Below are positions 1,395 to 51,010 of a stretch of DNA of 51,010 bases, in pieces. The notes under the pieces are model-generated. The model searched no databases, was not told the DNA's origin, and was given only the letters and a program-made list of their open reading frames with translations. The first letter of the stretch is position 1. Every line of letters starts with the position of its first letter. The position numbers and the translations under genes are program-made. This DNA is from Actinomycetota bacterium (GTDB taxonomy: Bacteria; Actinomycetota; Humimicrobiia; Humimicrobiales; Humimicrobiaceae): contig JAPLCN010000144.1 in the NCBI GenBank assembly GCA_026392215.1, positions 1-51,010 of the forward strand, written 5' to 3'.

Positions 1395-3095
1395 ATGCTT
1401 AAGATAGGCATTTATGACAGGTATTTAAATACACTTGGCGGCGGGGAAAGGTACAGCTGCAAGATGGCAGAAATCCTTTCAAAAAAAATACCGGCAACGG
1501 TTGATCTGATCACAGATATTTACAGCAACCTGGAAGATGTTTCAAAAAGGCTCAATCTTGATTTAAGCAAAGTCAACCTGAAGATCTTTCCCTTTATTTC
1601 TGAAGATTATGCATCAAAGATAACAGGCAGCTATGATATTTTTATAAATGCCACTTATTTGAGCTCGCTTCCTGCAAGCGCCGGATATAATATTTATCTG
1701 TGTTATTTCCCTACATCTTTCAGCTCGGATTTTAAATTCATACACAGGTTTCTCCTACTGTTCTTCAGGCTGCCTGCAATATGGCTTTTTAAAATTGCAG
1801 ACAAAATGATTGAAAGCTCCAGCTTTATGGAAGTAAAAGAAGGCCTATATGACGTAAAAAGATTTATGTTAAAGAGAGGAAGCTGGAGTTCGGGCAGGGT
1901 TATATTTAAAGTAAAAAACTTCAGTTTAAAAAACATTTATTTCGGCAAATTAAATTTAGGCTTTAAGAATCCCCCCAGTTCTCAAATTAAGGAAATGAAC
2001 GTAACAGTAAAAGTCTTTTCAACAGGCAGGGATGGTTTTGACACTCGTGATGAAAGTGCTGATTTTGAAATGGAAAACGAAGGCAATTTATTTTTTGAAA
2101 AAAAATTCCTGCTGAAAAGTGAGGAAAAAATAAACTTTGAAATTCCTTTAACTGCAGAAAACGGCAACATGATTTTAATAACTTCTGATACATTTATCCC
2201 ATCACAGCTAAGTAAAGTTGTGGTGGATTCAAGAGAGCTTGGAGTAGTCGTATATGATAATAACAGATCAAGTGTTTTAAAAAAAATAATTCTTAAAGTG
2301 TTGGGTTTTATTCCATTATTTCTGGTTACATATCCTTCAAAACTTAAGTTTCTAAGTAGTTATCAGAAAGTTCTTTCCATTTCAAATTACTCACAGTACT
2401 GGGTTAAAAAGTTTTGGAGGAGGGAAAGCACGATTTTATTTCCACCCGTTGACATTGGAAGCTTTTACAGTAAAAAAAAGGAAAAAATAATATTAAGCGT
2501 CGGGAGGTTTTTCCCGGAGCATCACAACAAAAAACAACTTGAACTGGCACGGGTATTTATTGAGCTTTGCAGGCAGCATCCTGAAGAAATGAAGGGTTAC
2601 GAACTTGTGCTTGCAGGAGGTCTTGAAAACAGAAAAACGCATCTGGATTATGTTGATAAAATTAATGAAATTTCAAAAGGCTTCCCAATAAGGATAATGG
2701 CAAATATACCATGGAGTGATCTGGTGGAAATGTTTGCAAAGGCAGAAATTTTCTGGCATGGATCAGGCATAGGCGAAGACGAACAGAAACATCCTGAAAA
2801 ATTTGAGCATTTTGGCATAACTACTGTTGAAGCAATGGCGGCAGGCTGCATTCCGATTGTAATAAACAAGGGCGGACAGAAGGAAATTATAAGCGAAGCA
2901 AAAAACGGATATAAATTTGAAAATTTTAACGAACTTAAAGAAAAGACACTGATGGTTATTAAAAATCCCCAAAAGTTAAATGAGATAAGGGAAAATGCTA
3001 AAAAAGATTCAAGATTGTTTTCAAATGAAGTTTTTGAAAAAAACCTTCTTGAAATAATAAAAATTGTGAGTATGGCATTAAATAAAAACGTCTGA
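1395..3095 (+). CDS. Family 4 (group 1) glycosyltransferase
   Basis: GT-B type glycosyltransferase, probably cytoplasmic or at the inner face of the membrane, adding a sugar to a lipid-linked glycan. The N-terminus has the glycine-rich loop NTLGGGERY; the C-terminal half has ILSVGRFF and the donor-binding block FEHFGITTVEAMAAG with the conserved Glu, as in Alg11/mannosyltransferase-like GT4 enzymes. A stretch around residues 170-290 between the two Rossmann halves is longer than usual and rich in K, N and F. The start is taken at ATG 1395, with AAAGGAA upstream; the track uses TTG three bases earlier. It lies between two GT2 genes on the same strand, consistent with a glycan assembly operon. 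Sugar specificity is unknown. Confidence 0.85.
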   Translation: MLKIGIYDRYLNTLGGGERYSCKMAEILSKKIPATVDLITDIYSNLEDVSKRLNLDLSKVNLKIFPFISEDYASKITGSYDIFINATYLSSLPASAGYNIYLCYFPTSFSSDFKFIHRFLLLFFRLPAIWLFKIADKMIESSSFMEVKEGLYDVKRFMLKRGSWSSGRVIFKVKNFSLKNIYFGKLNLGFKNPPSSQIKEMNVTVKVFSTGRDGFDTRDESADFEMENEGNLFFEKKFLLKSEEKINFEIPLTAENGNMILITSDTFIPSQLSKVVVDSRELGVVVYDNNRSSVLKKIILKVLGFIPLFLVTYPSKLKFLSSYQKVLSISNYSQYWVKKFWRRESTILFPPVDIGSFYSKKKEKIILSVGRFFPEHHNKKQLELARVFIELCRQHPEEMKGYELVLAGGLENRKTHLDYVDKINEISKGFPIRIMANIPWSDLVEMFAKAEIFWHGSGIGEDEQKHPEKFEHFGITTVEAMAAGCIPIVINKGGQKEIISEAKNGYKFENFNELKEKTLMVIKNPQKLNEIRENAKKDSRLFSNEVFEKNLLEIIKIVSMALNKNV

Positions 3096-34087: not shown

Positions 34088-34440
34088 GGGGGCGTTTTGG
34101 ATTCGACAGGGGTAGATTGAGCTTAGATGGCAAACCGAGTACCAGAGACTCGTAAAACGCTGGAACAAAAATAAACGCAAACAAAAGCGAATTAGCTTTA
34201 GCTGCCTAAACGCAGCTAACGTCCTTTAAGAGTTTCCTTCACTTTTAAAAGGGCGCCGTTAGAAGGATACCTTTTTAAGGAGCGGCCGTTTCCTTAAAAG
34301 AAGGGAAAATTAAAACAGCATAGCAATGAAAGATACTGTTCATGTGATTTTTCAAAGCGAAAATTAGACATGAACTATGTTTGTAGAAGTTTAAGTGCCA
34401 TTGTCTTTGGACGCGGGTTCGACTCCCGCCGCCTCCACCA
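34088..34440 (+). ncRNA. ssrA: Transfer-messenger RNA (tmRNA)
   Basis: The acceptor GGGGGCG pairs with CGCCTCC before an encoded ACCA end; GGGTTCGACTCCC forms the T-arm. The 5' part has the expected TTTGGATTCGACAGGGGTAG. The tag reading frame begins GCA AAC AAA AGC and encodes ANKSELALAA before TAA, ending in the usual hydrophobic AA degron. A one-piece tmRNA of about 353 bases. It trans-translates stalled ribosomes with SmpB. Its 3' end is a frequent integration site, and accessory genes follow here. Confidence 0.96.
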
Positions 34441-47707: not shown

Positions 47708-47787
47708 CGGGGTGTAGCGCAGCCTTGGTTTAGCGCACCTGCTTTGGGAGCAGGGGGTCGGAGGTTCAAATCCTCTCACCCCGACCA
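47708..47787 (+). tRNA. tRNA-Pro (anticodon TGG)
   Basis: The acceptor CGGGGTG pairs with CACCCCG; encoded CCA; anticodon loop CTTTGGGAG gives TGG; T-arm GGAGGTTCAAATCCTCT. The D-loop is longer than usual (80 bases in total). Immediately followed, without a T-run, by the tRNA-linked element described next. Confidence 0.95.
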
Positions 47788-48014
47788 GTACTTTGAAAGT
47801 AAAAGTTAGCTTTGATTGGAGTTTAAATACGCCGGTGGCATATTTAAACAAAAGGATTTGAATGGACGGACTGAAGGCGGCAGCCGAAGGAGTCCGCGGC
47901 TCTGCAGCGAGCGATAGCGAGACGAAAGACCAAATCCTCTCACCCCGACCAGTACTTTGAAAGTAAAAGTTAGCTTTGGTTGGAGTTTAAATACGCCTGT
48001 GGCATATTTAAACA
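47788..48014 (+). mobile_element. tRNA 3'-end-linked element at tRNA-Pro
   Basis: Structure: spacer with hairpin GTTTAAATA-c-GCC-GGT-GGC-a-TATTTAAAC (47821-47849); GGATTTG (47854-47860), complementary to CAAATCC of tRNA-Pro; a GC-rich core with GGACT / AGTCC and GCGAGCGATAGCGAGAC (47861-47930); an exact copy of the last 21 bases of tRNA-Pro (47931-47951); then a second copy of the spacer (47952-48014). The 84-base block starting in the T-loop is thus present twice, 164 bases apart. No ORF; the track lines here are shadows. Confidence 0.85.
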
Positions 48015-49953: not shown

Positions 49954-50129
49954 ATTAAATGATATCGTTTTTTTAAATTCTTTTTCTAAATTCTTATTGA
50001 CTTGCATATTAATATTTTTTAAAGTATTATTTCGTTGCAATTAATTCAGAATAGTTGTCGGATGCTGTTAATTTTTTTATACACTGATTTTGTTATAATG
50101 AGTTAATTTGAATAGTATTAAATTAATAT

Positions 50130-50206
50130 GCGCTTGTAGCTCAGCTGGATAGAGCTACGGACTTCTAATCCGTAGGTCGGGGGTTCGAATCCCTCCAAGC
50201 GCACCA
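50130..50206 (+). tRNA. tRNA-Arg (anticodon TCT)
   Basis: GCGCTTG pairs with CAAGCGC; encoded CCA; anticodon stem ACGGA / TCCGT with loop CTTCTAA; T-arm GGGGGTTCGAATCCCTC. No T-run follows; two tRNA-linked elements do. Confidence 0.97.
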
Positions 50207-50375
50207 TTGAACTTTGATAATTTATTTGCAACTTTAGATAAGAGTTTAAATCTGCCGGTGGCTGATTTAAACAAAGGGATTCGAATGGACGGAGCGAAGG
50301 CGACAGCCGAGTGAGTCCGCGGCTACGTAAGCGAGCGATAGCGAGACGAAAGACCGAATCCCTCCAAGCGCACCA
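50207..50375 (+). mobile_element. tRNA 3'-end-linked element at tRNA-Arg(TCT), long copy
   Basis: Spacer with hairpin GTTTAAATC-t-GCC-GGT-GGC-t-GATTTAAAC (50244-50272), the inverted T-arm piece GGGATTCG (50276-50283), core GGACGGAGCGAAGGC...GCGAGACGAAAGAC, and an exact copy of the last 21 bases of this tRNA (50355-50375). Distance between tRNA 3' ends: 169 bases. Confidence 0.85.
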
Positions 50376-50497
50376 TGATACTTTGGTTTTAAGTTTTAAA
50401 ACTTTGAATGGACGGAGCGAAGGCGACAGCCGAGTGAGTCCGCGGCTCTGCAGCGAGCGATAGCGAGACGAAAGACCGAATCCCTCCAAGCGCACCA
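50376..50497 (+). mobile_element. Short second element in tandem at tRNA-Arg(TCT)
   Basis: A 122-base unit with a different spacer (palindrome AAGTTTTAAAACTT in place of the long hairpin), no full inverted T-arm (only TTTGAATGG), the same core, and again the exact 21-base tRNA-Arg(TCT) end (50477-50497). A further near-copy of the same spacer (AGATACTTTGG...) follows. The 381-base minus ORF in the track (50118-50498) is a shadow of these repeats. Confidence 0.85.
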
Positions 50498-50565
50498 AGA
50501 TACTTTGGTTTTAAGTTTCAAAACTTTTTGCTAAGCCGTTAGAATACTAATGGCAAAGGAATTTT

Positions 50566-50739: not shown

Positions 50740-50816
50740 GCGCCTGTAGCTCAGCTGGATAGAGCGACGGACTTCGAATCCGAAGGCCGGGGGTTCGAAT
50801 CCCTCCAGGCGTGCCA
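50740..50816 (+). tRNA. tRNA-Arg (anticodon TCG)
   Basis: Acceptor GCGCCTG / CAGGCGT with a G1-U72 wobble; encoded CCA; anticodon loop CTTCGAA; anticodon stem ACGGA / TCCGA, with an A27-A43 mismatch at its base. T-arm GGGGGTTCGAATCCCTC. Followed by a tRNA-linked element. The two weak pairs may be tolerated or may mark early decay. Confidence 0.93.
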
Positions 50817-51010
50817 AACACTTTAAAGTTTAAAGAATAACTTTTGATTAGAGTTTAAATATGCCTGTGGCTTATTTAAACAAAGGGATTCGAAAGGACG
50901 GAGTGAAGCGAAGCGTAATGAGTCCGCGTCTCTGCAGCGAACGATAGTGAGACGAAAGAACGAATCCCTCCAGGCGTGCCAAACACTTTAAAGTTTAAAG
51001 AATAACTTTT
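50817..51010 (+). mobile_element. tRNA 3'-end-linked element at tRNA-Arg(TCG), continues to window edge
   Basis: Spacer with hairpin GTTTAAATA-TGCC-TGT-GGCT-TATTTAAAC (50853-50881), inverted T-arm GGGATTCG (50885-50892), a more diverged core (GGACGGAGTGAAGCGAAGC, GTCTC / GAGAC), an exact copy of this tRNA's last 21 bases including its T72 (50961-50981), and the start of another spacer copy (50982-51010). A further unit may follow outside the window. Confidence 0.85.

Follow-up and report, generated by a model that had tools for sequence, protein, structure and literature searches.

The trailers that follow three tRNA genes in the window (the whole stretch of 51,010 nucleotides analyzed here) are probably copies of an RtT-type structured RNA unit, which exists in many copies and spreads among tRNA 3′ ends. 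Established in this analysis are the layout of the unit, its host-matched tail, the covariation of its arm with the host T-arm, compensatory changes in its inner stems, its tandem copies, its presence or absence as a block, and the exchange of its core. The three genes, tRNA-Pro(TGG), tRNA-Arg(TCT), and tRNA-Arg(TCG), all lie within the final 3.4 kb of the window and are followed by the same type of trailer, in which a unit comprises a spacer, a hairpin, an inverted arm, a core, and a tail of 21 nt identical to the 3′ end of its own tRNA; one unit was found at Pro(TGG), two at Arg(TCT), and one at Arg(TCG), as listed below with the supporting analysis in parentheses.

47708..47787, plus strand: tRNA-Pro(TGG), host (ARAGORN; Rfam tRNA)
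47767..47787, plus strand: own 3′ end of tRNA-Pro, copy 1, 21 nt from T-loop to CCA (repeat comparison)
47821..47849, plus strand: AT-rich spacer hairpin GTTTAAATACGCC/GGCATATTTAAAC of the Pro unit (inverted-repeat search)
47853..47862, plus strand: inverted arm AGGATTTGAA of the Pro unit, 10/10 complementary to the host T-arm (arm/host comparison)
47863..47930, plus strand: GA-rich structured core of the Pro unit (R1/R2 model matches; covariation)
47931..47951, plus strand: tRNA-Pro 3′ end, copy 2, exact (repeat comparison)
47952..48014, plus strand: beginning of a second Pro unit, spacer and hairpin only (repeat comparison)
50130..50206, plus strand: tRNA-Arg(TCT), host (ARAGORN; Rfam tRNA)
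50244..50272, plus strand: spacer hairpin of the first Arg(TCT) unit (sequence; alignment)
50276..50285, plus strand: inverted arm GGGATTCGAA of the first Arg(TCT) unit, 10/10 (arm/host comparison)
50286..50354, plus strand: core of the first Arg(TCT) unit (model matches)
50355..50375, plus strand: exact copy of the tRNA-Arg(TCT) 3′ end (tail/host comparison)
50376..50497, plus strand: second tandem Arg(TCT) unit, 122 nt, lacking the spacer hairpin and with a degenerate arm (5/10)
50477..50497, plus strand: exact tail of the second Arg(TCT) unit
50740..50816, plus strand: tRNA-Arg(TCG), host (ARAGORN; Rfam tRNA)
50853..50881, plus strand: spacer hairpin of the Arg(TCG) unit (sequence)
50885..50894, plus strand: inverted arm GGGATTCGAA of the Arg(TCG) unit, 10/10 (arm/host comparison)
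50895..50960, plus strand: core of the Arg(TCG) unit (model matches)
50961..50981, plus strand: exact copy of the tRNA-Arg(TCG) 3′ end (tail/host comparison)
50982..51010, plus strand: beginning of a further Arg(TCG) unit, the contig stopping inside the array

At tRNA-Pro(TGG), the CCA is followed in order by a 33-nt AT-rich spacer, the hairpin, the inverted T-arm, the GA-rich core, and the 21-nt tail copy. The block starting in the T-loop recurs 164 bases downstream, as an earlier note on this DNA had claimed, and belongs to a 99-nt ungapped repeat family with 91% identity; the exact second tRNA-Pro 3′ end described there was also confirmed, the 21 nt CAAATCC...CCA being identical at 47767–47787 and 47931–47951. 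Indeed, the same core does follow two other tRNA genes, Arg(TCT) and Arg(TCG), each time with that tRNA's own 3′ end: the core string GCGAGCGATAGCGAGAC is exact at 47907, 50331, and 50453 and carries two mismatches at 50937, far above the number expected by chance (mean, 0.01 in 100 shuffles). About 145 nt separate the 21-nt repeats, with no room for a coding sequence. A 126-aa open reading frame lying antisense to tRNA-Arg(TCT) and both of its units (50118–50498, minus strand) is very likely a spurious frame that an annotation pipeline might list as a protein. In the window's genome, contig C42 opens with a further Arg(TCG) copy ending in the same tail. No unit was found at the tRNA-Gly, tRNA-His, and tmRNA genes of the window; the window's tmRNA gene lies at 34088–34440, and in several relatives the tmRNA gene bears one to three units.

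Among the 43 tRNA genes examined in the window's genome, 10 carry a unit. Beyond the window, units follow Tyr (two), Arg(ACG), Pro(CGG), and Ser(GCT), and units cut short ahead of the tail copy follow Asn, Leu(TAG), and one Pro(GGG). The tRNA-Asp gene is followed by spacer, hairpin, and partial arm with the core absent, and at tRNA-Ser(CGA) the contig ends within the spacer. The arm of the Ser(GCT) unit departs by one base from the T-arm of its host and is identical to the arm predicted for Leu(TAG) in this genome, which hints at a donor.

The distribution of the unit was analyzed with a covariance model built from ten copies (R1) and a second model (R2). The earlier note had proposed such a search with a list of the tRNA genes carrying the core; R1 matched 24 of the 35 genomes of the window's own family (to judge from the matching records, Actinomycetota, Ca. 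Humimicrobiia, Ca. Humimicrobiaceae), with 23 kinds of host, and a scan of the phylum with R1 gave matches in 23 of 396 genomes, every one in the same family. A scan for the layout, made independently of the core and covering one T-arm consensus, found 10 of the 396 phylum genomes, all again in this family, with none in the control. A pattern scan of named genomes yielded 82 stretches, in Actinomycetota records (some titled only 'bacterium'), including Ca. Humimicrobium oleiphilum and Ca. Hydromicrobium americanum, and in one Burkholderiales record, which fits the 21-base search pattern, not model R2, and was taken as a chance match. Neither the core pattern nor either of two layout patterns matched any viral contig, and the Pro unit had no match in phage and plasmid records. 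Rfam assigned no family to the window's unit, either at the gathering threshold or at E values up to 10. Literature searches found no paper on this Humimicrobiaceae unit, and our claim of novelty is limited to these searches.

In total, 151 copies were tabulated from the 35 family genomes, and a recognized host lies beside 127 of them on the same strand, namely, 22 kinds of tRNA and tmRNA. The 24 remaining copies, assigned by reading, include 16 at contig ends inside arrays and three adjoining a masked, odd, or intron-separated tRNA; only five (L067, L100, L130, L149, and L152) have no adjoining host, and their tails are tRNA- or tmRNA-like or decayed forms. Thus, with 5 of the 151 copies away from a recognizable host, the core does not occur at arbitrary sites, and the proposed link to tRNA genes holds. 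The arm of a single or first unit mostly begins 61–75 nt past the CCA, exceptions being 127 nt (L070) and 295 nt (L121). Tandem arrays hold two units at Arg(TCT) and likewise at Tyr, at least two at Arg(TCG), and three at each of three loci of genome G023.

The tails match their own hosts. All 21 nt agree in 99 of the 123 readable tails, and 112 tails show three or fewer mismatches. For these 112 complete copies, selected for three or fewer mismatches in 21 (the unselected figure being the 99 of 123 exact tails), the last 13 nt of the tail showed a mean mismatch of 0.11 against the own host, compared with 4.5 against hosts shuffled within genomes (2000 runs; minimum, 3.5). The arm was also found to follow the host, pairing with the own T-arm at 10 of 10 positions in 85 and 9 of 10 in 21 of the 112 copies. 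The mean fit was 9.66 for the own host and 8.73 for hosts permuted within genomes (maximum of 2000, 8.98), with a slight bias toward the own host arising from the reading of the arm at the offset, within a few nucleotides, that fits it best. Locus L136 (G033 contig C57, minus strand, about 1310–1600 in the reversed orientation) was omitted from the host tables because the end of its odd tRNA, which has a long variable arm and a CGC anticodon, is decayed; by eye, 7 bases of the 5′ acceptor (GGCGGTA) are matched by the distal tail copy (TACCGCC) and not by the adjacent tail.

In the predicted fold, the arm pairs with the tail copy and encloses a GGAC/GUCC stem, with an inner stem and loop, and a third stem. 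The covariation among 120 distinct copies, in an alignment fitted to the model's own structure, included changes on both sides in 13 of 24 pairs; cells changed on both sides numbered 237, compared with 77.5 in shuffled alignments, and none of 500 shuffles reached the observed value. This alignment (A4) omits 11 loci with weak, cut, or displaced copies as well as L042 and L049 of the window's own genome, and drops matches weaker than E 1e-8. Paired cells amounted to 95.9%, compared with 88.4% in the shuffles, and to at most 43.5% when the partner was slid by 1–3 columns. In the inner stems, G-U combinations (142) far exceed A-C combinations (15), indicating that the tRNA-sense strand is the folding strand. 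Single sequences folded little better than shuffled ones (z from −2.35 to −0.04), and the support for the structure is therefore comparative. Of the two options raised by the earlier note, that of a tRNA-linked noncoding RNA is thus borne out in part, in that the stems covary on the tRNA-sense strand.

This layout is already familiar from RtT (Rfam RF00391), which is treated in PMC4986893 and PMC8092127. PMC4986893 reports the E. coli RtT as a stable RNA released from the tRNA transcript. In E. coli tyrT, tRNA-Tyr is followed by a spacer, the inverted arm GGGGAAGGAT, a GA-rich core, and the copy AATCCTTCCCCCACCACCA, with the repeats at 178 nt; the annotated RttR RNA starts 7 nt past the tRNA and ends with the CCA of the tail copy. 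In Salmonella, a tRNA-Pro(CGG) gene is followed by two RtT units, both with the arm GAGGAT and both closing with the tail of that tRNA, ATCCTCTATCACCGACCA; they sit behind a terminator-like hairpin with a T-run, so that steady read-through is not assured for the class. Both RtT and the Humimicrobiaceae unit immediately follow a tRNA gene in the same orientation, consist of spacer, inverted arm, GA-rich core, and the own tRNA 3′ end through CCA (a tail copy of 18–19 nt in E. coli and Salmonella and 21 nt in Humimicrobiaceae), have an arm whose pairing with the tail copy encloses a structured core, as in the RtT consensus structure, and are iterated in tandem. They differ in that the Humimicrobiaceae arm extends into the T-loop, and in that the Humimicrobiaceae unit is found in another phylum behind 22 kinds of tRNA and tmRNA, whereas the RtT records examined concern tRNA-Tyr and one tRNA-Pro only. 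Membership in RtT was rejected by covariance models in both directions: the RtT model (gathering threshold, 45 bits) had no match in the window, nor in six family genomes at E values up to 1, with the E. coli control matched, and R1 gave no credible match on five RtT loci. The unit had previously been called undescribed, which is correct insofar as the RtT model fails to match it, but its layout is that of RtT. Judged by the models, the Humimicrobiaceae unit is not a member of RtT, but it shares the construction of RtT and probably also its way of working.

The way in which the units change was seen from filled and empty sites at four tRNAs. At Ser(TGA), the unit of G033 lies between the CCA and CGCTCTGCGCC, whereas in G032 the CCA adjoins CGCTCTGCGCC directly; at Ala(GGC), G013 and G011 are filled and G017 is empty; at Lys(TTT), G014 and G017 are filled and G030 is empty; and at Trp, G023 is filled and the window's genome is empty. 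The insert at the filled sites comprises spacer, hairpin, arm, and core, with the 21-nt tail duplicated, and in the Trp case (G023) the initial 19 nt of the spacer are repeated past the second tail. Precise loss between the 21-nt repeats would give the same picture, so that these comparisons do not prove the direction, gain or loss. The spacer with its hairpin was 0.78 identical among tRNAs of the same kind in one genus and 0.64 among different tRNAs in one genome, whereas the nearest neighbor of the core was the unit of another tRNA kind in 84 of 101 cases; for Lys(TTT) of G012 and G014, the spacer is 99% shared and the core 81%. These results show that spacers track the kind of tRNA and cores track the genome, and hence that cores have been exchanged between loci, by conversion or by moving. 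Where the tails of orthologues have diverged, both copies have changed (Asp of G012/G017, Arg(ACG) of G008/G010, and Trp of G024/G023).

A block that is present or absent together with a duplication of the 21-nt host 3′ end agrees with part of the other option in the earlier note, an integrative element. In its full form, this explanation would make the unit a selfish, non-autonomous DNA element, inserted at the T-arms of tRNA and tmRNA genes by an enzyme acting in trans with a 21-nt target duplication, and folding in single-stranded DNA rather than in a functional RNA. The patchy presence in 24 of the 35 genomes, the empty sites for the whole unit with its duplication, the cores common to several loci of one genome, and the range of hosts (tmRNA and 22 kinds of tRNA) would all be expected of such an element. 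We nevertheless regard it as unlikely, since spacers remain with their tRNA across species, and since a site-specific integrase would carry the donor's tail rather than copy that of the host. Integrative elements of the tyrosine recombinase type habitually use tRNA and tmRNA genes as targets, and the unit resembles them in its hosts and in a duplicated block that extends from T-loop to CCA and leaves the tRNA whole. It differs from them in having only about 145 nt between the repeats and no recombinase gene, and in combining one core with 23 kinds of host, each copy with the tail of its host. Neither a site-specific recombinase nor any other integrase or transposase lies between the repeats, and no site-specific recombinase was found at the window loci. 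In locus L149 (G013 contig C80, about 1455–1800, minus strand), the upstream side of a unit with a tmRNA tail has given way to antisense sequence resembling, by eye, a tyrosine recombinase (F-H-G-L-R-H), a picture that would fit the integration of an island at the tmRNA gene.

The unit also shares with miniature transposable elements (MITEs) its short length, multiple copies, lack of coding sequence, and direct duplication at the flanks. However, it has no terminal inverted repeats at its ends, the only inverted repeats being the spacer hairpin and the arm/tail pair, and its sites are restricted to tRNA and tmRNA 3′ ends. No related transposase was found, the family examined being Y1, and Y1 transposases were rejected as the mobilizer because they are not commoner in carriers (10 of 24) than in non-carriers (4 of 11). 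Reverse transcriptases were found in 12 of the 24 carriers but in none of the 11 non-carriers (P 0.005, a value that does not come from independent observations because the family genomes are related), and this association possibly reflects shared descent alone. As a mobilizer, reverse transcriptase was also rejected: three of the four loci examined are group II introns, two of which follow terminator-like hairpins (by eye), the fourth was read as an open reading frame only, and none explains the tail copy. The unit itself was not identified as a group II intron, since no Rfam intron family was found in the window and RF02001 and RF01998 were confined to the separate loci L270–L272. At L272 (G028 contig C126, 609–2730), a group II intron (RF02001, RF01998, and reverse transcriptase) lies within a tRNA-Pro(CGG) unit, between the spacer hairpin and the core, and splits the inverted arm.

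Another explanation would dispense with movement altogether, namely, static local tandem duplications of the tRNA trailer, with gene conversion evening out the cores and the stem being selected for 3′ processing or termination. It would account for the tandem arrays at Arg(TCT), Tyr, and G023, the inheritance of spacers along with their tRNA, and the changes shared by both tail copies. It does not explain the same core behind 23 kinds of host, which implies that some unit travelled at least once per host kind, and each of Ser(TGA), Ala, Lys, and Trp has a relative that lacks the unit entirely, spacer included, although precise loss between the 21-nt repeats would look alike; we consider this explanation improbable. 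An artefact of assembly or binning has next to no probability and is refuted in the main, since 24 family genomes carry host-specific tails, many inside long contigs, and named records from unrelated projects bear the unit, although at 21 of 76 loci (4.0 expected) a contig does stop no more than 200 nt from a unit, an excess showing that arrays have been collapsed or broken.

For the RtT-type RNA unit favored here, the following course seems most likely. Read-through from the tRNA promoter would give an RNA spanning the tRNA and the unit, in which the arm would pair with the tail copy and enclose the core. As in E. coli, the tRNA 3′ machinery would presumably cleave at each CCA, yielding the tRNA and one RNA per unit. 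New hosts would most simply be invaded via the T-arm sequence that most tRNAs share, by recombination or template switching, leaving the 21-nt duplication, and tandem turnover may then maintain copies identical to the host. The earlier note had argued for read-through from the lack, at the carriers, of the T-run that directly follows the CCA of tRNA-Gly and tRNA-His; these two T-runs are present in the window, but across the 43 tRNA genes of the genome a run of five or more T within 40 nt downstream was found at 2 of the 10 carriers, as against 15 of the 33 genes without a unit, a difference that is not significant (Fisher P = 0.27), and the argument for read-through from missing T-runs is weak. 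By analogy with RtT, for which such a role is reported, one might guess that the freed RNA couples tRNA supply to starvation responses. More tentatively, and without calling it likely, we suggest that RtT repeats are one case of a wider, unnamed class of bacterial mobile RNA units, which would invade tRNA and tmRNA genes, copy the host 3′ end, mimic the T-arm, have their RNA freed by host processing, and swap cores like cassettes.

Until now, RtT has been regarded as an oddity of tRNA operons in enterobacteria, and its role is obscure. With some 150 copies behind 23 kinds of host, and with empty sites and orthologues, the family now provides comparative material beyond a single locus and demonstrates that such units spread, match the 3′ end of each host, and keep their stems on the tRNA-sense strand. 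Caution is due with identity blocks at tRNA 3′ ends, the usual sign of an island, as these can also stem from RtT-like repeats. Collectively, the spread and the role of such repeats are now open to testing.
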